In this document: positions 931-28,128 of the stretch, piece after piece
How the letters are laid out: every line of letters starts with the position of its first letter
How positions within the stretch are numbered: the stretch's first letter is position 1
Origin: an uncultured bacterium
Lineage (GTDB): Bacteria; Planctomycetota; Phycisphaerae; Phycisphaerales; SM1A02
Length of the DNA stretch: 51,335 bases
Reading direction: 5' to 3'
NCBI GenBank assembly: GCA_903831295.1
Contig: CAIKXA010000005.1
Location: 1-51,335, forward strand
Notes under the pieces: generated by a model
Told to the model about the DNA's origin: nothing
The model's input: the letters and a program-made list of their open reading frames with translations, nothing else
Database searches by the model: none
Made by a program: the position numbers and the translations under genes

Positions 931-1956
931 ATGCGACTTGGCGTGGATGTCATGGGCGGCGACAATGCGCCCGACGAGATCCTGAAGGGCTGCATCGCCG
1001 CGCTTCCAAAGCTTGCGGCGGAAGATGAACTTGTCCTTTACGGCGATCGACGCGTCATTGAAGAAACATTCAGCGAGCGCGGCATTTCAGACAAGCGCTT
1101 GACGATTGTCGCAACCACCGAAGTGATTGGCATGGATGAGTCCCCTGTTGAGGCGATTCGTTCCAAGCGCGACGCGAGCATGGTTGTGATGGCCAAGGAC
1201 GCCAGCCCAAAAAATGAAAATAGACTGCACGCCATTGTGAGCGCGGGCAACACCGGCGCCATGGTGAGCGCGGCGCAAATGCACATGCGTCGCATTCCAA
1301 ATGTGGTGCGACCAGGCATTGCCGTTACGGTTCCAACCTTCGCGGGCGCCGTGGTGTTGATCGATGTTGGAGCCAATATCGAGCCAAAACCAGTGCATTT
1401 GGCGCAGTACGGAGTGATGGGCGCCATCTACGCCAAGATCGCTTGCAACATTGCAAATCCGCGCGTGGCCATTATGAATGTGGGCGGCGAAGAAGCCAAA
1501 GGCACCGACGACATTCGACTTGCGCGCGACTTGCTGCGCGCCGCCACGGGTTTAAATTTCACCGGCTTTGTTGAAGGCCGCGGCGTGTTTGACGGCGAAG
1601 CCGATGTGGTGATCACCGACGGCGTGGTTGGAAATGTCATGATTAAACTTGCGGAAGGATTGTCCAGCGGCATCTTCAAAGCGCTTGCGCGAGAAGTGTT
1701 GGCGATTGATCCCGAACTGGCCACGCGTCTTGAACCAGTGGTCAAGAGTTTGTACGCCAAACATGACTATCACGAATTTGGTGGCGCTCCACTTTTGGGT
1801 GTGAACGGCATCGCGTTGATTTGCCACGGATCAAGCCACTCGCGCACAATTATGAACGCCATCACGCGCATGAAAATGTTCGCAGCCTCTGATATCAACG
1901 CGCAAATGAGCGAGCAACTTGGACACATGCGTATTTCCGACGAGGTCTCTGCGTGA
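931..1956 (+). CDS. plsX: phosphate acyltransferase PlsX
   Basis: Converts acyl-ACP to acyl-phosphate, the donor used by PlsY for the first acylation of glycerol-3-phosphate; peripheral on the inner membrane. The 341-residue protein has the family start MRLGVDVMGGDNAPDE and the conserved stretches SAGNTGA, DVGAN, MNVGGEEAKG and FVEGRGVFDGEADV-type sequence, with the usual length. The ATG is 3 bases after the rpmF stop and lacks a strong ribosome site, so translation is probably coupled to rpmF. Its TGA overlaps the GTG start of fabH (GTGA). Confidence 0.97.
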   Translation: MRLGVDVMGGDNAPDEILKGCIAALPKLAAEDELVLYGDRRVIEETFSERGISDKRLTIVATTEVIGMDESPVEAIRSKRDASMVVMAKDASPKNENRLHAIVSAGNTGAMVSAAQMHMRRIPNVVRPGIAVTVPTFAGAVVLIDVGANIEPKPVHLAQYGVMGAIYAKIACNIANPRVAIMNVGGEEAKGTDDIRLARDLLRAATGLNFTGFVEGRGVFDGEADVVITDGVVGNVMIKLAEGLSSGIFKALAREVLAIDPELATRLEPVVKSLYAKHDYHEFGGAPLLGVNGIALICHGSSHSRTIMNAITRMKMFAASDINAQMSEQLGHMRISDEVSA

Positions 1957-2957
1957 TACAGCCCTCCGGCGCGTGCGGCGTCCGGATGGCGGGCACTGGG
2001 TCCGCTGTTCCGGAAAAAATTCTCACCAACGACGATCTGTCGCGCATTCTTGACACCACCGATGAGTGGATCACGCAGCGCACTGGCATTCGCTGCCGTC
2101 GAGTGAGCGATCAATCAAAAGAAGGCACATTTACGCTGGCGCGCGATGCTTTGCGACGCGCGCTTGATGCTGCTTCCATGAAGGCATCGGATCTGGATTT
2201 GCTGATCATTGGAACGTGCACCGCGGAAATGCGCTGCCCAAGTTTGGCCTGCCGCGTGGCTGGCGACGTTGGCGCGATCAACGCCGGCGCGTTCGATGTT
2301 ACGGCGGCCTGCAGTGGATTTGTCTACGCGCTGAATGTTGCGGAAACAATGGTGCGCTCGGGCCGGTACAAAAATGTTGGCGTGATTGGAGCCGACGCCA
2401 TGAGCACCATGGTGGACTACCAAGATCGCTCCGTCAGTATTTTATTCGGTGACGCGGCGGGCGCCGCGATTCTTGTGCCCGACCCAGACCTGAACCGTGG
2501 ATGCATTTATCAAACGCTTGGCTCCGATGGCCGCGACTGGACCGGTTTGTACATTCCAAATCGCGCGCAAGAAGTTCCAGAGGCCGACAAGGACAATCCA
2601 ATTCGTCTTGGCTATTTGCGCATGGATGGCCGCGAGATTTTTAAATTTGCCGTATCCAAGTTCCGCGAAGTGATCGCCGACGCGTTGGAGAAAACCGGGC
2701 TGACCGCCGACGATATCAGTCAGATTGTTTGCCACCAAAGCAACGCGCGCATTATTGAGAACGCGATTGAAAAATTAAAATTACCGCGCGACAAGGTGCT
2801 GATCAACATCGATCAATATGGAAATTCCAGCTCTGGAAGCGTTGGCTTGTGTCTGGATCAAGTGTGGCGCGCCGGCAAAATTCCAGCAGGAAAGCCCATG
2901 ATTTTGGTGGCTTTTGGTGGCGGCGTTACTTGGGCCAGCAATGTGTGGAATGTTTAA
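1953..2957 (+). CDS. fabH: 3-oxoacyl-ACP synthase III (KAS III)
   Basis: Starts fatty acid synthesis by condensing acetyl-CoA (or another acyl-CoA) with malonyl-ACP. In the 334-residue protein the Cys-His-Asn triad is visible: C120 in TAACSGF, H261 in CHQSNARI and N291 in QYGNSSSGS. The C-terminal LVAFGGGVTWA is also typical. The GTG start at 1953 overlaps the plsX stop by four bases. The first possible ATG (1986) would cut into the first beta strand, so GTG is preferred. It is part of the plsX-fabH-fabD run. Confidence 0.97.
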   Translation: MIQPSGACGVRMAGTGSAVPEKILTNDDLSRILDTTDEWITQRTGIRCRRVSDQSKEGTFTLARDALRRALDAASMKASDLDLLIIGTCTAEMRCPSLACRVAGDVGAINAGAFDVTAACSGFVYALNVAETMVRSGRYKNVGVIGADAMSTMVDYQDRSVSILFGDAAGAAILVPDPDLNRGCIYQTLGSDGRDWTGLYIPNRAQEVPEADKDNPIRLGYLRMDGREIFKFAVSKFREVIADALEKTGLTADDISQIVCHQSNARIIENAIEKLKLPRDKVLINIDQYGNSSSGSVGLCLDQVWRAGKIPAGKPMILVAFGGGVTWASNVWNV

Positions 2958-3033
2958 TTTTGTACGATTCATTTGTTCGCGTCGCTAATTTTTTTCATGT
3001 TCGCTTGGTGGATTTCCACTTGGGAGTATTCAA

Positions 3034-4002
3034 ATGAGTCTCAATGCAATTTTTCTAGCGCCTGGCCAAGGCGCGCAAAGCGTGGGTATGGGCAAGTCAT
3101 GGCGCGACGCAAGTCCGGCCGCTGGCGAAATTTTTGCGCAGGCCGATCACATCGCCCACTTTGAAGGCGGCCGCACGCTAAGCCAACTTTGCTTTGAAGG
3201 GCCCGCCGAGCGTCTGAATCAAACTGATGTCAGCCAACCCGCGCTGTTGGTGTGCGCCATCGCGTGCCACGGCGCGCTTGTTGAGCAACATGGAGCGATC
3301 AATATTTCTGGAACGCTTGGACTTTCTCTTGGCGAGTACACGGCGCTTGCTTTGGCGGGCGCGTTCACTTGGCAAGATGCGCTGCGGCTTGTTCTTATTC
3401 GCGGTCGACTGATGCAGCAAGCGGCCGTCGCCAGCCACGGCGGCATGGTGGCGCTGATTGGTGCCGACGAGGAAAAAGCCAATGCGGTGTGCGCGGCCGC
3501 GGCGCAAAGCGATGTGCTTGTGCCCGCCAACTTCAACGCGCCGGGACAAATTGTTTTAAGCGGCCACGCTGTGGCATGCGATCGCGCCTGTGTTGAAGCC
3601 AGCAAAATTGGCCTGCGCGCCAGCAAACTTACGGTTGCGGGCGCGTTTCATAGCCCGCTTATGGCGCCGGCGGCCCAAGGCATGGCCAAGGCATTGGCCG
3701 ATGTTGAAATCGCCCCGCTTCGCTGCCCTGTTTGGAGCAATGTCACTGGAAAACCGCATCAAATGAACGACGCGGCAAGCGTGCGACAATTGCTGGTGGA
3801 TCAACTTGTGCAACCCGTTCGTTGGGACGCCTGTTGCGCCGATATGATCGCATGGCGCGCGGCGCAAGGCTTGAGCGAGTCATGCAAAATTCATGAGCTT
3901 GCGCCTGGCACCGTGCTGCGCGGTTTGATGCGACGGATTGACAAAGCCACCGAGGTCACCACCCATGATTCAGTTGCGGAAACTCAAAATGCTAAAAGTT
4001 AA
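3034..4002 (+). CDS. fabD: malonyl-CoA:ACP transacylase
   Basis: Transfers malonyl from CoA to acyl carrier protein. The 322-residue protein begins with the family signature FLAPGQGAQSVGMGKSW. The nucleophile is S98 in GLSLGEYTAL and the catalytic His is H206 in AGAFHSPLM. The residue before the Ser-Leu-Gly is Leu rather than the common His (GHSLGE), a variant also known in cyanobacterial and plant enzymes. A GGGAG ribosome site lies just before the ATG. It follows fabH after 76 bases, and its last 38 bases overlap the start of the next gene. Confidence 0.96.
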   Translation: MSLNAIFLAPGQGAQSVGMGKSWRDASPAAGEIFAQADHIAHFEGGRTLSQLCFEGPAERLNQTDVSQPALLVCAIACHGALVEQHGAINISGTLGLSLGEYTALALAGAFTWQDALRLVLIRGRLMQQAAVASHGGMVALIGADEEKANAVCAAAAQSDVLVPANFNAPGQIVLSGHAVACDRACVEASKIGLRASKLTVAGAFHSPLMAPAAQGMAKALADVEIAPLRCPVWSNVTGKPHQMNDAASVRQLLVDQLVQPVRWDACCADMIAWRAAQGLSESCKIHELAPGTVLRGLMRRIDKATEVTTHDSVAETQNAKS

Positions 4003-4792
4003 TTTCAATTCAACACGTCGCGTCGCCCTTTCGTTGGGCGCCCTTATATTTCTTGCGCCAGCATGCGGCAAGACCGAGGTGAAGCAAGCTGAAGTTGTTG
4101 AGGTGAAGGAAGTCGCGGTTGAGGAGGCTCCCAAAGAATCCCTCAACGACATGATGAAGCGCCTTGGAATTGACAAACGCGTGCGAGTTGAGGACGCCGA
4201 CAAGGCTCCCGCCGACGAGAAGCAGGCCGAGGCCGTGCTTGTGTTCTTTGACGCAATGGTTCGCGGCAACGCCGAAAAATTATCCCCACTGATGTCCAAT
4301 TTGGATCAAGCGGTATTGGCTGACATGAACAAATCTGGTCAATGGAAATCCGCCACGCAAAATATTTCGCGCGTGAACGTTGGCTGGACCCCTGGCTCCG
4401 AATCTGGATCGCTCACAGTTCTTGGTTTCTATACCGTGGGTGACGGATTCGCCGCGCAACTTTGGTCACTTTCGCCCGCGGAATCTGACAAACCATCGAT
4501 CATGACCGCGTTGCCATCGCCGTCAAAAATAGATGAAAAGTTGCAAGGCAACAAAACCGACGCCCGCATCAAGCAGTGGCTCGCGATGAATAAAGATGAA
4601 ATCGCCTCAGCCAAAGCGGCCGACGAAATCATTGAAATTCCTCAGCAAGATCGCTCTGTCAAAGGCGAATCAGATAGTTCGAGCGGTTCCGATGAGGGCG
4701 CCACTCCTGGCAATCCCGCTGGACCCGGTAGACGAAAACCAACTGGCAAGCCGGTGGATGCGCCGGGTGGTCCGCCATTAAAGCCCCGTTGA
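3965..4792 (+). CDS. unknown lipoprotein inside the fatty acid gene cluster
   Basis: I do not recognise a family. The chosen ATG at 3965 has GAGGT at 3952-3956 (8 bases spacing) and lies within the 3' end of fabD; a second ATG at 3989 is possible. It gives 275 residues. The N-terminus has basic residues, a hydrophobic segment (VALSLGALIFLA) and a cysteine (PAC-GK), suggesting an exported lipoprotein, although the lipobox is imperfect. An acidic, Val/Glu-rich stretch follows, then a globular middle of about 150 residues, then a Ser/Gly/Pro-rich low-complexity tail. It overlaps fabD by 38 bases, so it is translated with the fab genes. A link to lipid supply at the envelope is only a guess from position. 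Confidence 0.7.
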   Translation: MIQLRKLKMLKVNFNSTRRVALSLGALIFLAPACGKTEVKQAEVVEVKEVAVEEAPKESLNDMMKRLGIDKRVRVEDADKAPADEKQAEAVLVFFDAMVRGNAEKLSPLMSNLDQAVLADMNKSGQWKSATQNISRVNVGWTPGSESGSLTVLGFYTVGDGFAAQLWSLSPAESDKPSIMTALPSPSKIDEKLQGNKTDARIKQWLAMNKDEIASAKAADEIIEIPQQDRSVKGESDSSSGSDEGATPGNPAGPGRRKPTGKPVDAPGGPPLKPR

Positions 4793-4903
4793 TTTACACA
4801 TTTGTTGTTTGTGTGAATTTGATCTGCCGAGTGTGATTCAAATTATTTTTCTTGGATACACTCGCACCCTTACGTGAAGCTGTTTGTGTCATGCGCATTC
4901 AAC

Positions 4904-4919
4904 AGGAGATTGCATCATC
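4904..4919 (+). promoter_or_regulatory. ribosome binding site pointing to a rare ATC start of fabG
   Basis: AGGAGA at 4904-4909 is the strongest ribosome site near fabG. Seven bases downstream is ATC at 4917, exactly where FabG proteins normally begin (x-EKRVAIVTGASRGIG). The only standard in-frame start is a TTG at 4884, which lies upstream of this ribosome site and would add 11 residues with no family counterpart. Confidence 0.5.
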
Positions 4920-5651
4920 GAAAAGCGAGTCGCCATTGTCACAGGAGCCAGCCGCGGAATTGGTAGAGCGATTGCGGAACGCTTGGCAAAAGACGGACGC
5001 CATGTTGTTGGCGTGGCTCGCACCCCGGAAAATCTTGCAGATGTGATCAACGCCGTGCAGGCAGCGGGCGGATCCATGGAAGGCATGGCGTGCAATGTTG
5101 GCGACGGAGTGGCGCTTGCCGCTTTGGTTGAAGCTGTCGCAGAAAAGCACGGGCGCCTGGATATTCTGGTGAACAACGCCGGCATTACCCGCGACGGTTT
5201 GCTGCTGCGCATGAGCGATCAAGATTTTGACGAAGTGATTCAAGTGAATTTACGCAGCGCGTTCGTCACCTGCCGCGCCGCCGCGCGACCAATGATGCGC
5301 GGCCGATGGGGACGAATTGTGAATGTTGGCAGCGTGAGTGGCTTGATGGGAAATGCTGGACAAGTGAACTATTCCGCCGCCAAAGCCGCGCTGGTTGGCA
5401 TGACCAAATCAATCGCCCGCGAACTTGGTTCCAAGGGCTTAACCGCCAATTTGATCGCGCCTGGATTTATTGAAACCGATATGACCGCTCGTTTGCCGCC
5501 ACAAGTGAAGGAGGCGGCTCTACCAAGCATTCCCCTGCGTCGCTTTGGCCTTCCAGCGGACATCGCCGCGGCGGTTGCGTTTATCACCAGTGAAGAAGCG
5601 AGCTACATCACGGGGCAAGTGCTTGCCGTTGATGGCGGCATGTCCATGTGA
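4917..5651 (+). CDS. fabG: 3-oxoacyl-ACP reductase
   Basis: NADPH-dependent reduction of 3-oxoacyl-ACP in each elongation cycle. It is a short-chain dehydrogenase: TGASRGIG nucleotide loop at residues 9-16, NNAG at 86-89, and catalytic S139, Y152 and K156 (YSAAK), with the SDR C-terminus ITGQVLAVDGGMSM. Counting from ATC 4917 gives 244 residues, the family length. The alternative TTG at 4884 gives 255. The start is odd because no ATG, GTG or TTG sits at the expected place while a good AGGAGA does. A sequencing change of ATG to ATC would explain this equally well. It sits between the unknown lipoprotein and acpP. Confidence 0.95.
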   Translation: MEKRVAIVTGASRGIGRAIAERLAKDGRHVVGVARTPENLADVINAVQAAGGSMEGMACNVGDGVALAALVEAVAEKHGRLDILVNNAGITRDGLLLRMSDQDFDEVIQVNLRSAFVTCRAAARPMMRGRWGRIVNVGSVSGLMGNAGQVNYSAAKAALVGMTKSIARELGSKGLTANLIAPGFIETDMTARLPPQVKEAALPSIPLRRFGLPADIAAAVAFITSEEASYITGQVLAVDGGMSM

Positions 5652-5738
5652 TTGATAAATATTGTCCGTGCATGAATTGCAAATTTCCGTTAGCATCCCG
5701 ACCTTCAGACCTGTCCATTTTTGATTTAGGAGAAGCCC

Positions 5739-5996
5739 GTGACTGAGCAAGAGATCGAAACAAAAGTAATTGGAATCGTCGCCGAACAAATGGGTGTTGA
5801 TAAAGATCAAATCACCCGCGAAACCAGTTTCACCAATGACCTCAACGCTGACAGCCTTGATACGGTCGAACTTGTGATGGAACTTGAGGAGGAGTTTGAC
5901 ACCCAAATTCCAGACGAACAGGCGGAGAAGATCCACACTGTCGGTCAAGCCGTTGATTTCATCAACAAGAACTTATCCAGTAGCAAGGACAAGTGA
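5739..5996 (+). CDS. acpP: acyl carrier protein
   Basis: Carries growing acyl chains on a 4'-phosphopantetheine arm. The 85-residue acidic protein has the attachment motif [10 protein letters not shown], with the modified serine at S39. GTG start at 5739 with AGGAGA at 5728-5733 (5-base spacing). It lies between fabG and fabF as in most bacteria. Strong ribosome site and acidic helix II ([11 protein letters not shown]) are as expected for the abundant housekeeping ACP. Confidence 0.98.
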
Positions 5997-6037
5997 CGCG
6001 CGAGACTTCTTCAGTCTCGTTCGCCTAAAATATTCCC

Positions 6038-7300
6038 ATGCGAACCATCACGCTTCGCCGCGTCGTGGTCACTGGACTCGGTGCCATCACCGATGTCGGT
6101 TTGGATGTCAACTCTTTCTGGGACGCCCTTTTGGCTGGCAAGTCTGGAATTGGTCCAATCACCAATTTCCCGCAAAATGAAGAGTGGACAACCCGCTTTG
6201 GCGGTGAAATCCGCGCATTTGATTTGGAAAAACATGCGGGCATTGATGTTCGCGAATCCAGGCGCATGGACAACTTCGCAATCTATGGACTTGGCGCCGC
6301 CACTCAGGCCGCGACCGATTGTGGAATTGATTTCACAACCGGTGATCCTGATCGCCGCGGCGTGGCTGTTGGCAGCGGCGTTGGAGGCATCAACACAATT
6401 GAAACTGGTTTGTACAAACTGCTGGAAAGTGGTCCGCGCAAAGTGAGTCCCTTCATTGTTCCGCGGCTCATGGTCAACGCGTGCGCTGGTCAAATCAGTA
6501 TTCGCTACAACCTGCGTGGCTTCAACATTGCCACGGCAACGGCTTGCGCCTCTGGCTCGCATTCAATCGGCGCCGCGTACCAAGCGATTCAACGCAATGA
6601 CGTTGATGTGATGTTCGCAGGCGGAGCTGAAAGTGGAATTGGTCCCGTGTGCGTGGCGGCTTTCAGCGCCATGAAAGCGCTCAGCACTCGCAATGATGCT
6701 CCAACAAAAGCCAGCCGTCCATTTGACAAGGACCGCGATGGATTTGTGCTGGCCGACGGCGCGGCGATTCTTGTGTTGGAGGAATTGGAGCACGCAAAAA
6801 AACGCGGCGCAAAGATTTACGCCGAAGTGATTGGCTACGGTTCCAGTGGCGACGCATTTCACATTGCGGCGCCAGATGAGCAAGGTTCTGGCGCGAAACG
6901 CTCCATGTCATGGGCGCTGCGTGATGGCCAAATCAACGCGGATCAAATTGGATACATCAATGCGCACGGAACCAGCACGCCATTAGGCGATCGCGCCGAA
7001 GTAAACGCGGTTAAGCAACTCTTTGGCGCGCACGCTTACAAACTTGCAATGAGCAGCACAAAGGGCGTCACGGGTCACGCGCTTGGCGCGGCGGGCGGCA
7101 TTGAAAGCGTCGCCACAATCTTGGCCATTCACAGAGGAGTCCTGCCCCCCACTATTAACTTGGACAACCCCGACGAGGGAATGGATTTGAATTTTGTCGC
7201 CCATACTCCGCAAGAACGCAAATTGGATTTTGCAATCAACAATTCATTTGGATTTGGCGGCCACAACACCAGCTTGATCTTTAGCCGCTTCAACGGCTGA
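6038..7300 (+). CDS. fabF: 3-oxoacyl-ACP synthase II (KAS II)
   Basis: Elongating condensing enzyme that joins acyl-ACP with malonyl-ACP. The 420-residue protein carries the Cys-His-His triad: C170 in ATACASGSHS, H310 in NAHGTSTPLGD and H347 in GVTGHALGAAG. Length and C-terminus (NNSFGFGGHN) are normal. It ends the fab block, 41 bases after acpP. The next gene (GH15) begins 27 bases downstream on the same strand, so read-through is likely. Confidence 0.97.
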   Translation: MRTITLRRVVVTGLGAITDVGLDVNSFWDALLAGKSGIGPITNFPQNEEWTTRFGGEIRAFDLEKHAGIDVRESRRMDNFAIYGLGAATQAATDCGIDFTTGDPDRRGVAVGSGVGGINTIETGLYKLLESGPRKVSPFIVPRLMVNACAGQISIRYNLRGFNIATATACASGSHSIGAAYQAIQRNDVDVMFAGGAESGIGPVCVAAFSAMKALSTRNDAPTKASRPFDKDRDGFVLADGAAILVLEELEHAKKRGAKIYAEVIGYGSSGDAFHIAAPDEQGSGAKRSMSWALRDGQINADQIGYINAHGTSTPLGDRAEVNAVKQLFGAHAYKLAMSSTKGVTGHALGAAGGIESVATILAIHRGVLPPTINLDNPDEGMDLNFVAHTPQERKLDFAINNSFGFGGHNTSLIFSRFNG

Positions 7301-7327: not shown

Positions 7328-9343
7328 ATGCCCCGCAATATTCCAGTTGGTAACGGTGACATGTTGGTCGCCTTTGACGACCTCTATCGCATTCGCGATT
7401 TGTATTGGCCGCATGTTGGCCAACCAAACCACACCTGCGGACACTTGCAACGCTTTGGTGTTTGGGCCGACGGACAATTTGCGTGGATGGACAGTCCAGG
7501 CTGGTCGCGCAATTTTTCCTACAAGCACAACACGTTGCTGACCGAGGTGCGCTTGCGCAACGATCGCCTTGGCCTGGAGTTGGTGTGCCACGACGCGGTG
7601 GACTATTGGAGCCCGGTGTATTTCCGCCAAGTGATTGTTAAGGATCTGTGGAATCGCCCGCGCGATGTGCGCGTGTTTTTTCATGCGGATTTAAGCGTGA
7701 ATGAAAGCCCCGTGGGCGACACCGTTGCCTTTGATCCGCAAACTGGCGGCTTGATTCACTACAAAAACGATTTCTACTTTTTGTTCAACGGCAGCCATCC
7801 TGCGGGCGTTGGCGTGACCACCTATGCCACGGGCGCTAAAAGAATTGGCGAGGCCGAAGGCACGTGGCGCGACGCGGAGGACGGCATGTTGAGCCGCAAC
7901 AGCATTGCGCAAGGCAGCGTGGACAGCGCGGTTGGTTTCCAACTCACGCTTGCTCCAAATGGCAGCGAGACCTGCGTGTACTGGATCGCGGCCGGAAAAA
8001 GTTACGATGAAGTACACGCGCTGAACAAGAAGGTTTGCGAAAAAACTCCACAGCGCATGCTGGATCGCACCGAGGCCTATTGGCGCCTGTGGTCGCAACA
8101 GGAATTTTCTGGTGCGGATCCGCTTCCAAAACATTTGCAACAATTGCAGACGCGCAGTTTGCTGATCGCTCGCACGCAAATTGACAATGGCGGAGCAATC
8201 ATCGCGGCCAACGATTACGACATCACGCATTTCGCTGGCGACACGTATTCCTATATGTGGCCGCGCGACGGCGCGTTGGTGGCGCAGTCGCTTGTTCTTT
8301 CGGGGCAAAGCGAACTTAGTCGAAAATTTTTCCGCTTCTGCGAGCGCGTGCGCCACCCCGACGGATATTTCCACCACAAATACAACCCAAATGGAACGGT
8401 GGCTTCAAGTTGGCATCCGTGGCTCACGGAAAAGCCCTCGCTGCTGCCCATTCAACAGGACGAAACCGCGCTTATTCCATGGGCTTTACGCCAACATTTT
8501 GTGAAGTTTCGCGATGTGGAATTCATCAAGTCGCTCTACAACCCGCTCATTGTTGACACCGCGAACTGGATGATTTCATATCGCGACCATCACGGTTTGC
8601 CGCTGCCAAGTTGGGACCTGTGGGAGGAGCGCCGCGGAGTGCATTTGTTTACCGTGTGCGCAACCATTGGCGGCTTGCTTGCCGCCAGTCAATTTGCGCA
8701 GGATATGGGCGCGCATGATCGCGCCACCGATTTCAGCGAAGCCGCGGACCGCATGCGCTTGGCCATGTTGAAACACATGTGGGATCCGGAGCGCCGCTTG
8801 TTCGCGCGCACCGCCATCGCCGCCGAAGATGGTTCGTATCGACTTGACTTCACTTTGGACGCGTCGGCATACGCATTGTTCGCATTTGATGTATTGCCCG
8901 CCAATGACTCGCGTGTGTGCGACCACATGCGCGCTATCCGCGATCGCCTTTGGGTGCGCACGGAAATTGGCGGCATCGCGCGTTACGAACGCGACCCGTA
9001 TCAGCAAGTTGAGCACAGGGAACTTGAAAATGTTCCGGGCAATCCGTGGGTGATTTGCACGCTATGGTTCGCGCAGTGGCTTATTGCCAAGGCCAACAAC
9101 ATCGCCGAACTCGATGAGGCTATTCCCTATCTTGAATGGACCAATTGGCGCGCCTCATCCAGCGGTGTCTTGGCGGAGCAATATCATCCTTACACTGGCG
9201 CGCAAATTTCCGTGAGCCCTTTGACTTGGAGCCACGCCACGTTGATCACCACATCCATGCAATATCGACTGCGGCATGCGGAATTATCCGGCGCGCAAAC
9301 CCCCGTTGCGCAACGCGCCACAAGTGATGGCGCGTCCGCATAA
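7328..9343 (+). CDS. glycoside hydrolase family 15 protein (glucoamylase/glucodextranase-like)
   Basis: A 671-residue two-part protein: an N-terminal beta-sandwich-like half (1-250) and a C-terminal (alpha/alpha)6 barrel typical of GH15. Barrel motifs are YSYMWPRDGALVAQ (308-320), PSWDLWEERRG with the likely general acid E433 or E434, and LAEQYHPYTG with the likely general base E617. No signal peptide is visible, so it is probably cytoplasmic and acts on stored glucan, maltodextrin or trehalose-like substrates; the exact substrate cannot be read from sequence. It follows fabF by 27 bases with no clear ribosome site and is probably part of the same transcript. Confidence 0.9.
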   Translation: MPRNIPVGNGDMLVAFDDLYRIRDLYWPHVGQPNHTCGHLQRFGVWADGQFAWMDSPGWSRNFSYKHNTLLTEVRLRNDRLGLELVCHDAVDYWSPVYFRQVIVKDLWNRPRDVRVFFHADLSVNESPVGDTVAFDPQTGGLIHYKNDFYFLFNGSHPAGVGVTTYATGAKRIGEAEGTWRDAEDGMLSRNSIAQGSVDSAVGFQLTLAPNGSETCVYWIAAGKSYDEVHALNKKVCEKTPQRMLDRTEAYWRLWSQQEFSGADPLPKHLQQLQTRSLLIARTQIDNGGAIIAANDYDITHFAGDTYSYMWPRDGALVAQSLVLSGQSELSRKFFRFCERVRHPDGYFHHKYNPNGTVASSWHPWLTEKPSLLPIQQDETALIPWALRQHFVKFRDVEFIKSLYNPLIVDTANWMISYRDHHGLPLPSWDLWEERRGVHLFTVCATIGGLLAASQFAQDMGAHDRATDFSEAADRMRLAMLKHMWDPERRLFARTAIAAEDGSYRLDFTLDASAYALFAFDVLPANDSRVCDHMRAIRDRLWVRTEIGGIARYERDPYQQVEHRELENVPGNPWVICTLWFAQWLIAKANNIAELDEAIPYLEWTNWRASSSGVLAEQYHPYTGAQISVSPLTWSHATLITTSMQYRLRHAELSGAQTPVAQRATSDGASA

Positions 9344-9354
9344 ACAAGCGATAT

Positions 9355-9381
9355 TTGCCTTAAAAACAATCAAAACATAAT
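9355..9381 (+). promoter_or_regulatory. candidate promoter for the cobalamin-binding protein gene
   Basis: TTGCCT at 9355-9360, then a 15-base spacer, then CATAAT (5 of 6 matches) at 9376-9381 in an A-rich stretch. A transcript would begin near 9388, 18 bases before the TTG codon at 9406. The -10 is good and the spacing is slightly short. Confidence 0.4.
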
Positions 9382-9405
9382 TTCAATCGACCCTTTGCGT
9401 GGCGA

Positions 9406-10521
9406 TTGAATCTGCAATTGAGAATTGGCGAACAAACTCAAGTGAAATCTTCCCGACTCGAAGTTGCCCAGATCATTGAGTCATCTAGTCGTGCCATTGC
9501 CACTTGGACTGTTGATCAGCATTACCGAGAAGATGACACTATGGAAATGCGTTACGGCGCGAATGGCCGGCGCATGTGGAACCAAGAAGTACTTTCGCGA
9601 ATTGCCCATCTTGTCGAAGCCGTCGCACTAGGCCGTGAGCAAATTTTTATCAGCAACGCGCAGTGGTCTAGAACCGCGTTCATTGCACGTGAACTCAACT
9701 CCAAAGATCTGGCGCACAATTTAAATTGCATGCGAAGCGTATTGCTCGAACAATTTCCAAAAGTGATTTCGGATTTGACCACGCCAATAATCACCAATGC
9801 CGTTGAACATCTAGCAAAACATGACGAGTGCCTGGATACTCCCTTGACGTATGCCGGACCGTCACGGGATCTTGCCCGCATGTATCTCCTGCACCTGTTG
9901 CGCCGAGATCGCAACGAAGCGGATCGCTTCATTTCGGAACTCTCAGGCAACGGAATTGGCTTCGCCCAAATTTGCGAAGGAATTCTGGTGCCAGCCATGG
10001 CTGAGATTGGCCATATGTGGCACGTGCAAGAAGCCAGCATTGCCGATGAACATTATTGCACCAACGCGACGCTGGGAATTTTGGAGGTGCTTCGCTCCAA
10101 GACCCCCCACAAAGCGCCCAATGGATTTCTCGTGGTATCCGCTTGTGTTGGAGGTGATTTGCATGATCTTGGAATTAAAGTTTTGTCCGCCATTTATGAA
10201 ACTGAAGGCTGGACCGTGGAATGCCTTGGCGCGAACACTCCGGCGCAAGAAATTGCGGACTCCGTGGGGCCGCAGGTTTATCGAGGCGCGGCCGATCTGT
10301 TAGCGCTTAGCGCCACAACAAGTTTGCGCCTCCGTTCCATTCAGAATGCCATCAAGGAAGTGCGCGCCACTCCAACAGGAAGAAATATTCCTATTTTAGT
10401 GGGCGGTCAACCATTTCAACAAATGGATGATCTCTGGCAAGTCGTGGGAGCCAACGCCCAATCTTCAAACGCTTCCGAATCGCTTGAAATAGCCTATCAA
10501 CTTGTGATTCAATCTCGATAA
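9406..10521 (+). CDS. stand-alone cobalamin-binding protein with CarH-type photoreceptor residues
   Basis: Counting from TTG 9406 the protein has 371 residues. Residues 150-235 form a helical cap and 240-371 a B12-binding Rossmann domain: DLHDLG (H253 as expected lower cobalt ligand), ALSATTS near 300 and LVGGQPF near 333. The cap contains W205-H206 followed by E215-H216, i.e. the W-x9-EH signature of adenosylcobalamin photoreceptors. From memory, Thermus CarH uses W131, H132, E141, H142 and H177; all five have counterparts here with near-identical spacing. There is no MerR DNA-binding domain. The first 140 residues are a helical domain of unknown role. GTG 9442 or ATG 9541 are alternative starts. 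It is monocistronic, tail to tail with phoH (4 bases apart). Function as a light or B12 sensor is inference. Confidence 0.88.
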   Translation: MNLQLRIGEQTQVKSSRLEVAQIIESSSRAIATWTVDQHYREDDTMEMRYGANGRRMWNQEVLSRIAHLVEAVALGREQIFISNAQWSRTAFIARELNSKDLAHNLNCMRSVLLEQFPKVISDLTTPIITNAVEHLAKHDECLDTPLTYAGPSRDLARMYLLHLLRRDRNEADRFISELSGNGIGFAQICEGILVPAMAEIGHMWHVQEASIADEHYCTNATLGILEVLRSKTPHKAPNGFLVVSACVGGDLHDLGIKVLSAIYETEGWTVECLGANTPAQEIADSVGPQVYRGAADLLALSATTSLRLRSIQNAIKEVRATPTGRNIPILVGGQPFQQMDDLWQVVGANAQSSNASESLEIAYQLVIQSR

Positions 10522-24583: not shown

Positions 24584-26833
24584 TCACTGCCCCTGAAAGT
24601 TGCTTGTGCGCAACCCTTGAAGCATCAATTCCGCAGCGGTGGAGGCCCTTTGAATCGCGGCAGCGGTTCGCGCCACGCCAGCGTCAATCCCGGCAGAGTC
24701 ATGCGCCTGCAAGGCTTGTTGAATCGCCGGAAATACGCTTGGCGAATAGCTGTTGGATGGATCCGTTGCCACCCAAAGATTGCGATACCAAGGGCGATCG
24801 GCCAAGCCACTGTCATCTTTGAATGCCTTGGTGAATTTGCGAATTCCCATGAGCAGACGCTGCTCGGATTGCATGTCGCGCGGATGATTTTCCAAAATCG
24901 CCACGTCGACCAACTCCCCCTGCGTCTGCAAGGAGATCAACATTGGACGGAGAATTTCAAGCGTGGATTTTTCTTGATCCGTCTTGGCGAGTTGCATCAA
25001 CCCATCAAGCGCCTTCAAGCCAAGTCGCCCAATTTCTCCGTACTGATACGGCGGCAACTTTTGATTGGACATAAGCGCCGTGAAAGACAACGTGGCGCGC
25101 GTGACCATGAGCGCTGGTTCGTAGTTCTCGCCAACCGTGGCGCGATACCAAGCCGTGGTGTCGTAATTGCTGTGATAGCTGGAGCCCTGTGAACCGCCCG
25201 CTGAAATAGCGATCGCCGGAACCACCATGCGGCAGACAAATCCAACATGATCGCTTCCACCACCTAAAGTTCCAAAGAGCGTGTCGGATTTATTATTGCT
25301 CAACATCACCGACAAGGCGTTGTTGCTTGGATCGCCCGCAGCTGGAATCATCGCGGCGCAATCCTTGGCGACCTGGGTTAATTCCGGAGTGAGCGCCAAG
25401 GACAAGTTGGGCCCCATCGCCGCCATGTCAAGATTGACATAAGACACGATTTTGCCCCCCATTTCATTGTCATGCCCCTCCACCCACTCGGTGCTTCCAA
25501 TGATTCCAAACTCTTCCGCGCCCCAAGCCGCGAAGATGATTGAACGCTCCGGCCAAATTCCTTGCTTGGCCAATTGCGCCACACAATTCGCCGCCTCCAA
25601 AAGACAAATCGTTCCCGCGCAAGGATCAGCCGCGCCGTAGCCCCATGCGTCGTGATGGCATCCAACAACAATCACCTCATTAGGACGGCGCCAACCTTGA
25701 ACCATGGCCAACACATTGGCGGACCCACCAAGAAATCTTTCTTGCTCAATCGCAAGGTGAACTTTCAAATTATTTCCACCCGTCAATCGATACGGAAAAT
25801 TCAAACCGCCTTGCCACGACGGGTCTGGAATATCCACGCCCTTCATGCGCGCCATGATGGCGCCCGCCGCTGCGTATCCAACTGGCTGCACTGGAATGCG
25901 CGGCAGATCTAAATTTTGCGGCAGTTCGCGACTGACATTGTCCGCGGCGTACACACCCGGAGTTCCTGGATCGCCTGGATAAGGCAGCGTGTTCAATGTT
26001 CCTCGTTGAATGCAAGCATCGTTGGCCCAACCACCGCCACTTGGCCAAGTGGCGCCCTTAGTGAATCCAGAATCACCGGGATCCGTGAAGATGATCAACC
26101 CAGCCGCGCCCGCATTTTCCGCGAAGCGCGCCTTGAATCCGCGAAAGTTTTTTCCATATCGGGCCAAAACAATCTTGCCTTTCACATCCACCCCTAGCGC
26201 CTTCAATTTGTCAAAATCTTCTTGTGTTCCATAGTTGGCGTAGACAACCTCGGCGGTGACATCGCCATTTCCGCTGTACGCATTCCAGCCGTAGGTTAAA
26301 TCTGGATGCGCCGTGGCCGGATCTTCAAGCAAGTTTTTTTCATTCAGGGCCAACGACAGAACGCCCTTGCGCGTTGTCGGCGCGGCAGTAGCCGTTTGAT
26401 TTGTATTTTGCACTGGCGCTGATTCTTGCGATGCTGCGTCGTCGATAATTTCCAGCGTGGCGCTGATCGGCCTCGACAGATACGCACGGAATCCCTCCAC
26501 GCGGGCTTTCAATCCCATGGACTCAAACGCTTGCTTCAGGCGCTCAACTTGGCGCATATCGCCGGGCGTTCCCGCGACATGCGGCTCTTGTGTCAACACA
26601 TCGTGCCATCTACTCAACTCGCTTGCTCGCGGCAAGGCAATCAATTTTTCAGCGTACTGTTTGGCGGAAAGTGGCACAGGAATTTTTGACTGCGCTTTTT
26701 CAACAGCGGCGCTTGGATTGTCCAACGCGTCTGCGCTTGGCTTTTGCTGTTGATTGCCAGCCACGGCAAGCGCCGCCGCGATCGCAATGGCGAGGGCTGT
26801 GGAAATACCCAGGCCAATTTTTCCATCGATCAC
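24584..26833 (-). CDS. M28 family metallopeptidase (glutamate carboxypeptidase II-like)
   Basis: Zinc exopeptidase with the architecture of PSMA: membrane anchor/signal (about 6-25), protease-associated domain (about 160-330), M28 catalytic domain (about 365-590) and a TFR-dimer-like helical tail. Expected ligands by alignment to PSMA: H393 and D403 (HHDAWGYGAADP), base E440 and ligand E441 (WGAEEFG), D469 (VNLDMAA) and H529 (GSDHVGF). The GTG start at 26833 shares GTGA with the msrBA stop, giving 749 residues. It probably trims peptides in the periplasm or on the outer face of the inner membrane. Confidence 0.93.
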   Translation of the reverse strand: MIDGKIGLGISTALAIAIAAALAVAGNQQQKPSADALDNPSAAVEKAQSKIPVPLSAKQYAEKLIALPRASELSRWHDVLTQEPHVAGTPGDMRQVERLKQAFESMGLKARVEGFRAYLSRPISATLEIIDDAASQESAPVQNTNQTATAAPTTRKGVLSLALNEKNLLEDPATAHPDLTYGWNAYSGNGDVTAEVVYANYGTQEDFDKLKALGVDVKGKIVLARYGKNFRGFKARFAENAGAAGLIIFTDPGDSGFTKGATWPSGGGWANDACIQRGTLNTLPYPGDPGTPGVYAADNVSRELPQNLDLPRIPVQPVGYAAAGAIMARMKGVDIPDPSWQGGLNFPYRLTGGNNLKVHLAIEQERFLGGSANVLAMVQGWRRPNEVIVVGCHHDAWGYGAADPCAGTICLLEAANCVAQLAKQGIWPERSIIFAAWGAEEFGIIGSTEWVEGHDNEMGGKIVSYVNLDMAAMGPNLSLALTPELTQVAKDCAAMIPAAGDPSNNALSVMLSNNKSDTLFGTLGGGSDHVGFVCRMVVPAIAISAGGSQGSSYHSNYDTTAWYRATVGENYEPALMVTRATLSFTALMSNQKLPPYQYGEIGRLGLKALDGLMQLAKTDQEKSTLEILRPMLISLQTQGELVDVAILENHPRDMQSEQRLLMGIRKFTKAFKDDSGLADRPWYRNLWVATDPSNSYSPSVFPAIQQALQAHDSAGIDAGVARTAAAIQRASTAAELMLQGLRTSNFQGQ

Positions 26834-27948
26834 GGGGCGCTCTTCACGGCGGTTGTTTCTTTTTTCTCGGCGAACACCGCCGGCCACGGATTCACTCCAT
26901 GACAAGCGCGGCCCGTTCGCTCAACGTAATCCTGATGATATTCCTCGGCGGGGAAAAACTTTTTAGCGGGCTCGATCACAGTCACAATTTTTTTCCCACT
27001 AAACTGTGGCGATATTTGCAACGCGGCGGTGAACGCCTTGGCTTGCGCCAACTGCTCTTGATCCGTGGTGAACACAGCCGAGCGATATTGATCGCCCACA
27101 TCCGGTCCTTGTCGATCCAATTGAGTTGGATCATGCATGCGAAAAAATCCGTCAAGCAGTTGTTGAAAGGACACTTTCGACGGGTCGTAGGTCACACGAA
27201 CTGCTTCCGCATGTCCGCTTTTATGCGCGCACACTTCCTCGTAAGTTGGATTCTCGGTGGATCCGTTCATGTACCCACTCGAAACATCGGCCACACCTGG
27301 ACATTCTTGAAACCAATGTTCCACGCCCCAAAAACACCCGCCCGCAAAATAGGCTGTCTTGAGTTGCATCGGCAAACATTCTGGCGGAAGCGTTGATCCC
27401 TTTTCATGGAACACCAATGCCGCCGAATTTAAACAATACCGAAGACCCGTGGGCTTGGGTCCGTCTTCAAACACGTGTCCAAGATGCGCTCCGCAACGCG
27501 CGCAATCAATCTCCACGCGCTCCATGCCGAACTCATTATCTTTTTTATAGCCGACATGGTCGGGATCGAATGGAGAGAAAAAACTTGGCCAACCAGTTCC
27601 GGAATTAAATTTATTCTCGCTGGAAAACAGCGGCAATCCGCAGACCACGCAACAGTACATGCCCTCTTTTTTATTGTCGAGCAAGTTGCCACAAAATGCT
27701 GGCTCAGTGCCCGCCTTCTGCGTCACTTTGAATTGTTCTGGAGTTAATTTTGTGGCCAACGCCGCAACCTGATCTTTGGTCAAAGGCGCTGTGTTGTAAC
27801 CACTTCGGGAAAGTGCGCGGGGTTTGCTCTTCATGGAAATCTCTTGAGTTGAAGTTTGATCATCGAATGACATCGCCAAAGTTGCCACCATAAACGCGAT
27901 AGTGCATGCCGCAAGAATATAAATTTTGCCGTGGCGAAGAAGATGCAT
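26830..27948 (-). CDS. msrBA: methionine sulfoxide reductase MsrB-MsrA fusion, exported
   Basis: Repairs both stereoisomers of methionine sulfoxide. From ATG 27948: signal or anchor (about 9-27), MsrB domain (55-185) with zinc pairs C100/C103 and C149/C152, GTGWPSFF, and catalytic C172 in GLRYCLNSAAL; then MsrA domain (195-350) with catalytic C205 in AGGCFWGVEHWF and EYHQDY. The order MsrB then MsrA in one chain with an export signal implies an envelope repair enzyme. A TTG at 27969 could add 7 residues. Translation is coupled to the M28 peptidase by a GTGA overlap. Confidence 0.93.
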   Translation of the reverse strand: MHLLRHGKIYILAACTIAFMVATLAMSFDDQTSTQEISMKSKPRALSRSGYNTAPLTKDQVAALATKLTPEQFKVTQKAGTEPAFCGNLLDNKKEGMYCCVVCGLPLFSSENKFNSGTGWPSFFSPFDPDHVGYKKDNEFGMERVEIDCARCGAHLGHVFEDGPKPTGLRYCLNSAALVFHEKGSTLPPECLPMQLKTAYFAGGCFWGVEHWFQECPGVADVSSGYMNGSTENPTYEEVCAHKSGHAEAVRVTYDPSKVSFQQLLDGFFRMHDPTQLDRQGPDVGDQYRSAVFTTDQEQLAQAKAFTAALQISPQFSGKKIVTVIEPAKKFFPAEEYHQDYVERTGRACHGVNPWPAVFAEKKETTAVKSAP

Positions 27949-28128
27949 GACAGAAGGATAGTAGGTCAATCATCCATCCCGCTCAAAACAATTTCACGTC
28001 GAATGGAGCGGACGATATGGGACGATTTGCGTTGCCGCGCGACAACGCCAACCAGACCCCCACGGCTTGGGGTAAAATCGCGCCCGACACTGCATTTCTA
28101 ACTTCTTCGCTATAGTGTTCCTTCCACT

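Follow-up and report, generated by a model that had tools for sequence, protein, structure and literature searches.

The gene at 9442..10521 on the forward strand of the window, as we call the whole 51,335-nt stretch of DNA analysed here, probably encodes a stand-alone photocobilin, in which a globin domain of the photoglobin/phycobiliprotein type is followed by a CarH-type B12-binding domain; its cofactors and light response are predicted. The analysis established the domain make-up, conservation and kinship of this protein directly. It belongs to a family with many conserved stand-alone members, in which the domain order is the reverse of that in the characterised photocobilins. The first-pass annotation had described a B12 protein that has the CarH light-sensing residues but no DNA-binding domain, and the complete residue signature in the sequence supports this description. 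The stretch is contig C5 of a genome assembled in 120 contigs (2.48 Mb, 83.7% complete).

Gene structure and translation start

The open reading frame at 9406-10521 (+), with 371 aa from a TTG codon, is present as first annotated. The whole gene is under purifying selection (dN/dS of 0.14-0.23 against five orthologues), with values of 0.09-0.19 for the globin domain and 0.15-0.40 for the B12 part, and the gene is real by this measure. However, the TTG start proposed at first was not borne out by comparison with orthologues: the GTG at 9442 is kept in 7/7 aligned sequences, and an in-frame TAA lies between the two codons in 6/6 orthologues. GTG 9442 is a likelier start of translation than TTG 9406, which gives a likely coding sequence of 359 aa, its stop being included in the coordinates above, and leaves a 12-codon N-terminal extension (9406..9441, +) that is probably untranslated. 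Residue numbers therefore fall by 12 relative to the TTG numbering. Below, residues of the B12 domains are numbered from TTG and those of the globin domain from GTG, with the other numbering in brackets.

The gene had also been thought to stand alone with its own promoter. It lies instead at the end of a same-strand run of fatty-acid-synthesis and GH15 genes, 98 nt past the GH15 stop codon. No sigma-70-like site was detected at 9250-9560 (0.4 in shuffled sequences); planctomycete promoters may differ from this pattern. A -10-like hexamer, CATAAT, is found at 9376-9381, and similar hexamers were seen by eye in some orthologues.

B12-binding domain and light-sensing residues

Pfam places a B12-binding_2 (four-helix cap) domain at 9877..10092 (+; residues 158-229) and a B12-binding (Rossmann) domain at 10132..10449 (+; residues 243-348). 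Alignments locate W205-H206 (W193-H194) at 10018..10023, E215-H216 (E203-H204) at 10048..10053, and H253 (H241), the expected lower cobalt ligand, at 10162..10164, all on the forward strand and all at the residue positions given in the first-pass annotation. W205, E215, H216 and H253 are identical in 24/24 rows of an alignment comprising the window protein, 21 relatives found by whole-protein rather than motif search, and two plasmid homologues. The contig-end fragment L017 was excluded from the alignments, and L028-L034 were weaker matches representing other B12 proteins. The same four residues are identical in 81/81 rows of a larger set, which is biased for W and EH, but not for H253, because it was partly fetched with W-[HQ]/EH peptide patterns. 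H206 is variable, with H in 18 of the 24 rows and H 63, Q 17 and S 1 among the 81. This is the position of the second His of the CarH light state (His132), and Arg, Gln or Tyr are described there in other light-responsive proteins (PMC11796333).

The signature of light-sensing B12 domains has been given as GxxW / EH / GxxH / GxxxP (PMC11796333), and it is complete in the window protein (G202..W205, E215-H216, G250..H253, G275...P279). The W-x9-EH cap and E/DxH ligand motif of the photocobilin type are also present. The same genome encodes a cobalamin adenosyltransferase, MetH and a B12 protein of the mutase type, which makes adenosylcobalamin (AdoCbl) plausible as the cofactor. The B12 part of the photocobilin reading is likely, with the cofactor predicted.

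Other B12-domain proteins were found alongside the family. A second one in the same genome, L004 (G000:C28:5697-6002, -), lacks the cobalt-ligand His (no DxHxxG), and similar degenerate proteins of relatives (L029, L031, L032) form one clade with it (support 100/100). Two proteins with a MerR-type HTH and a B12 domain (L033 in G039 and L034 in G043) keep W-x9-EH, and Tyr replaces the lower-ligand His in them (GDIY).

Relationship to photocobilins and other B12 proteins

Photocobilins were the top-scoring PDB sequences in a search by profile (158.7, 158.4 and 150.1 bits), followed by CtMerR (116.3 bits), corrinoid proteins (94.4, 89 and 75.7 bits), CarH (71.9 bits) and AerR 7TE2 (36.2 bits, E=3.2e-8). 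CarH is not the nearest relative, as judged by the higher scores of photocobilins. A tree of 41 sequences placed the family in one clade (98/94), joined to two photocobilins by a weak node (88/73). Corrinoid methyl carriers formed a separate clade (100/100), and the B12 domains of MtaC, MttC, MtmC and MetH were set apart from the family; the grouping with methyltransferase shuttles that the first-pass annotation had raised as the competing placement was thus not seen. At the base of the tree, the branching order among CarH, the methyl carriers and the family had a support of 40/12, with long TtCarH and MetH branches, and five tree rows, including that of SasPcob, were of odd composition.

Two characterised photocobilins, SasPcob (8J2W/8J2X) and AbDPcob (8J2Y), both have the B12 domain first; their AdoCbl is cleaved by green light, and biliverdin adds a response to red light (PMC10979010). 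The window protein shares with them the two domain families, the B12 signature residues and, by hand alignment, a candidate counterpart of the Trp beside bilin ring D, and it is a stand-alone protein like SasPcob. However, its globin comes first. Since the photocobilins predicted in PMC10979010 have the B12 domain at either end, the window protein would still belong to the known photocobilin kind. CarH/LitR and CtMerR (5C8A, 3WHP, 8JBS) have the W, the EH pair and the lower-ligand His in common with it, and H206 corresponds to CarH His132; however, they carry a MerR HTH where the window protein has a globin, and H206 varies across the family. CarH proper was rejected as an identity on the absence of an HTH.

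Photoglobins have been grouped with bilin globins related to phycobiliproteins (PMC10151467). In the photoglobin and BBAG systems described there, a globin of this kind is joined to B12 domains or encoded beside them, as here. BBAGs are separate globins clustered with bilin reductases, whereas the globin and B12 domains of the window are in one protein. In the open-licence literature we found no planctomycete sensors of the CarH type, and for planctomycete globin, B12 or bilin proteins nothing closer than PMC10151467.

AerR/PpaA (7TE2) is another B12 protein that works through a partner regulator, and its kinship to the window protein is weak. AerR is not known to have a globin domain. No CrtJ/PpsR or photosynthesis genes were assigned among the window ORFs scanned.

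N-terminal globin domain

The N-terminal part had been regarded as a different helical domain without an HTH. The absence of an HTH stood, as no Pfam family matched the N-terminal 128 aa of the window protein, but the region is not merely another helical domain: profiles identify it as a relative of bilin globins (9448..9831, +). The globin profile was built from 47 sequences, namely the window protein and 46 of 80 family relatives (themselves a subset of 412), and eight of the 47 singly match PF00502 (Phycobilisome) at E<=1, the best at 4.5e-10. When the N-terminal profile was searched against PDB sequences, the globins of photocobilins came first (8j2w, E=2e-10; 8j2y, 7.4e-6) and were followed by allophycocyanin, the best phycobiliprotein (E=0.0027); the 28 PDB sequences at E<=10 comprised three photocobilin chains, 20 phycobiliproteins, three smURFP and two designed proteins. 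The whole-protein profile matched SasPcob and AbDPcob twice each, at the B12 domain and at the C-terminal globin (E=1.2e-4 and 0.012 for the globin stretch), showing the swapped order.

An AF2 model from a 22-row alignment was confident (pLDDT of 93.1, pTM of 0.89) and had an all-helical N-terminal domain, but the N-terminal stretch folded by itself reached a pLDDT of only 58.1 and gave no usable model. It should be noted that the globin assignment comes from profiles rather than from a structural match, because the best 50 of 113 fold-search matches at E<=0.001 were all B12 proteins, with no globin among them. Very long ORFs enclose the family gene in L067 (1011 aa) and L066 (516 aa); they show only the B12 domains in Pfam and are most likely open frames that run on too far rather than fusions.

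Bilin site and biliverdin supply

Glu49 (E61; 9586..9588, +) was aligned by hand with Asp270 of SasPcob, which contacts biliverdin, and Trp75 (W87; 9664..9666, +) likewise with Trp296 of SasPcob beside bilin ring D. SasPcob numbering follows the paper, in which residues are numbered six higher than in the chain, as checked on W61, E71-H72 and H108. That the biliverdin-binding Asp appears as Glu in the window protein is a counterpoint to the photocobilin reading; the residue is Asp in SasPcob and His in AbDPcob. Among 78 rows, the Glu49 site is acidic in 64 (E 48 and D 16), and Trp75 is invariant (78/78). Where phycobiliproteins have their bilin-attaching Cys, the window protein has, by eye, Trp46, so any bilin would be bound non-covalently, as in photocobilins. 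The globins of five distant members (L096, L097, L101, L035 and L036) have Cys-x-x-Asp (CIQD, CLQD, CRQD, CVED), whose counterpart in phycobiliproteins is CxRD with the bilin-attaching Cys. Other members of their branch have Ser or Thr at the Cys position, and a photocobilin with a covalent bilin is conceivable among the Cys-x-x-Asp members.

Biliverdin requires heme oxygenase, and, as a further counterpoint, neither PF01126 nor PF14518 was found in the genome of the window (G000, 84% complete), nor was a PHY domain. The bilin may therefore be absent, scavenged or made in another way, and what the globin holds becomes a question. PF01126 was found in none of the 13 same-genus genomes that carry the gene, that of the window included; the only genome of the genus with PF01126 (G001) has no photocobilin-like gene. 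Across 61 relatives, PF01126 occurs in 4/23 gene-bearing genomes versus 15/38 others. However, a class-wide sample showed the opposite trend, with heme oxygenase in 4/8 gene-bearing genomes versus 23/142 others (Fisher p=0.035). Of the genomes reached through family loci (50 of 80 loci used), 7/50 contain PF01126. Residue 49 showed no clear link with heme oxygenase, being E1 D4 C1 Q1 in seven loci from positive genomes and E24 D11 H6 N1 A1 in 43 loci from negative ones. A rhodopsin search was uninformative, as it gave no match in any control genome.

Proposed mechanism and alternative explanations

By analogy with its homologues, from which the cofactor, photochemistry, dimer and partner are inferred, the protein may work as follows. 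The dark state would be a B12 domain loaded with AdoCbl, in which His253 is the lower ligand and the adenosyl group lies, at a dimer interface, under a cap formed by Trp205 and the Glu215-His216 pair. On illumination with green light, the Co-C bond would be cleaved and the adenosyl group released, with movement of the cap and the globin. Since the window protein has no output domain, it would hand its signal to a protein that it binds, much as a cyclase is altered in vitro through contact with stand-alone photocobilins (PMC10979010). The same work calls the role of stand-alone photocobilins unclear. The globin may extend the colour range with a bound biliverdin-like bilin, or may serve mainly as a moving or partner-binding part.

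The latter case, in which the globin is without bilin, has a structural or partner-binding role and leaves only the B12 spectrum to be sensed, is a possible variant of the photocobilin reading that we hold tentatively and do not favour. The rarity of PF01126 in the genus, the relatives and the family-locus genomes speaks for it, and so does AbDPcob, whose residue at the Asp270 site is His and which is light-active despite its low biliverdin content (PMC10979010). However, heme oxygenase goes with the gene in the class sample, the acidic site and Trp75 are kept, many of the genomes have gaps, and cells could import biliverdin or synthesise it with other enzymes. A bolder version, in which a large clade of globin-first photocobilins of Phycisphaerales has lost both bilin and heme oxygenase, retains a green-light AdoCbl switch with the phycobiliprotein-like globin as output and, encoded behind the fatty-acid-synthesis genes and beside a GH15 gene, links light through direct contacts between proteins to the metabolism of membrane lipids or storage glucans, seems unlikely to us.

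The photocobilin reading also has to be weighed against functions that make no use of light or of bilin. A protein that binds B12 as a sensor of cobalamin level, redox state or a metabolite is improbable: the light response is deduced from residues, and a degenerate B12-domain protein exists in the same genome, but the light-sensing signature is retained in full, and the proteins that PMC11796333 selected with it did respond to light. A globin that binds heme and is coupled to the B12 domain would fit the globin kinship of the N-terminal domain; it is nevertheless very improbable, as the profile matches are bilin globins and no N-terminal His reaches at least 80% in the 78 rows, the commonest being at position 56 (H 40, Y 22). 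The corrinoid methyl carrier of a methyltransferase system was rejected and has hardly any probability left. Its one point of support, that the best NCBIfam match is MtgC (60.9 bits), falls far below the cut-off of 370 bits; photocobilins score far higher, the carriers form their own clade, and no methyltransferase occurs among the neighbours scanned.

Distribution of the family

Matches at E<=4.5e-30 were found in 23 of 61 relatives. The genus, with 16 genomes, accounts for 13 of these, one of which is a contig-end fragment. Among named records, those nearest to the window protein come from planctomycete MAGs, and lakes such as Baikal appear in some of their names: the closest, a Planctomycetaceae MAG, shows 89% identity, and Phycisphaerales bacterium Baikal-deep-G174 shows 75%. 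Relatives also occur in the isolates Adhaeribacter soli and Paenibacillus abyssi and in MAGs titled Gemmatimonadaceae, Sulfuritalea and Acidobacteriota. Twelve plasmid records, eight from Azospirillum and two from Skermanella among them, carry homologues, ten of which cover at least 80% of the query. A viral relative was rejected, as the best BFVD match had E=0.012 and none reached 0.001.

Genomic neighbourhood

Upstream of the gene lie a fatty-acid-synthesis run (931..7300, +) with plsX, fabH, fabD, fabG and fabF assigned by Pfam families, acpP (5739-5996, +) recognised by eye and an ORF without assignment (3938-4792, +), and then a GH15 glycoside hydrolase gene (7328..9343, +), a conserved upstream neighbour. 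The latter matched the TIGR01577 oligosaccharide amylase at E=2e-90 and 304 bits, below the cut-off of 820.7. Neighbours were counted by BLAST over 80 loci. These raw counts include self-matches, since some of the 80 loci supplied queries along with the window, and many contigs end near the gene. A same-strand GH15 gene precedes the family gene in 27 loci (its distance being distorted by an over-long ORF in five), and in 36 loci fabF precedes it on the same strand at no more than 3 kb. The gene order is conserved, and this adjacency may simply be inherited.

By the same raw counts, an ECF sigma factor and/or RskA-type anti-sigma gene is nearby in 7/80 loci (L075, L090, L093, L094, L107, L111, L113). 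A Pfam scan of thirty hand-picked neighbour proteins confirmed the sigma gene in L090, L093 and L113 and RskA_C in L075 and L111; the second gene of L093 has no Pfam family and groups with these genes by BLAST. Pfam identifies a histidine kinase directly adjoining the family gene in L085, L096 and L101, and L097 may have one too (by BLAST only, with no Pfam family); LuxR-type regulators are near the family gene in L110 (Pfam), L112 and L114 (BLAST). These neighbours of some distant homologues fit the signalling by protein contact that had been suggested from the window alone and that the sequence supports as probable, and their adjacency to some members, as candidate output partners, makes the question of the partner testable.

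The homologue on an Azospirillum thermophilum plasmid (L036:8992-10193) is followed by two annotated genes that overlap, one for a hypothetical protein and one for a histidine kinase with HAMP, and these may be a disrupted kinase gene; the joined frame has stops. Elsewhere in the window, 26830-27969 (-) encodes a fused methionine sulfoxide reductase B/A that scores above the NCBIfam cut-off (PRK05550, 361.5 bits).
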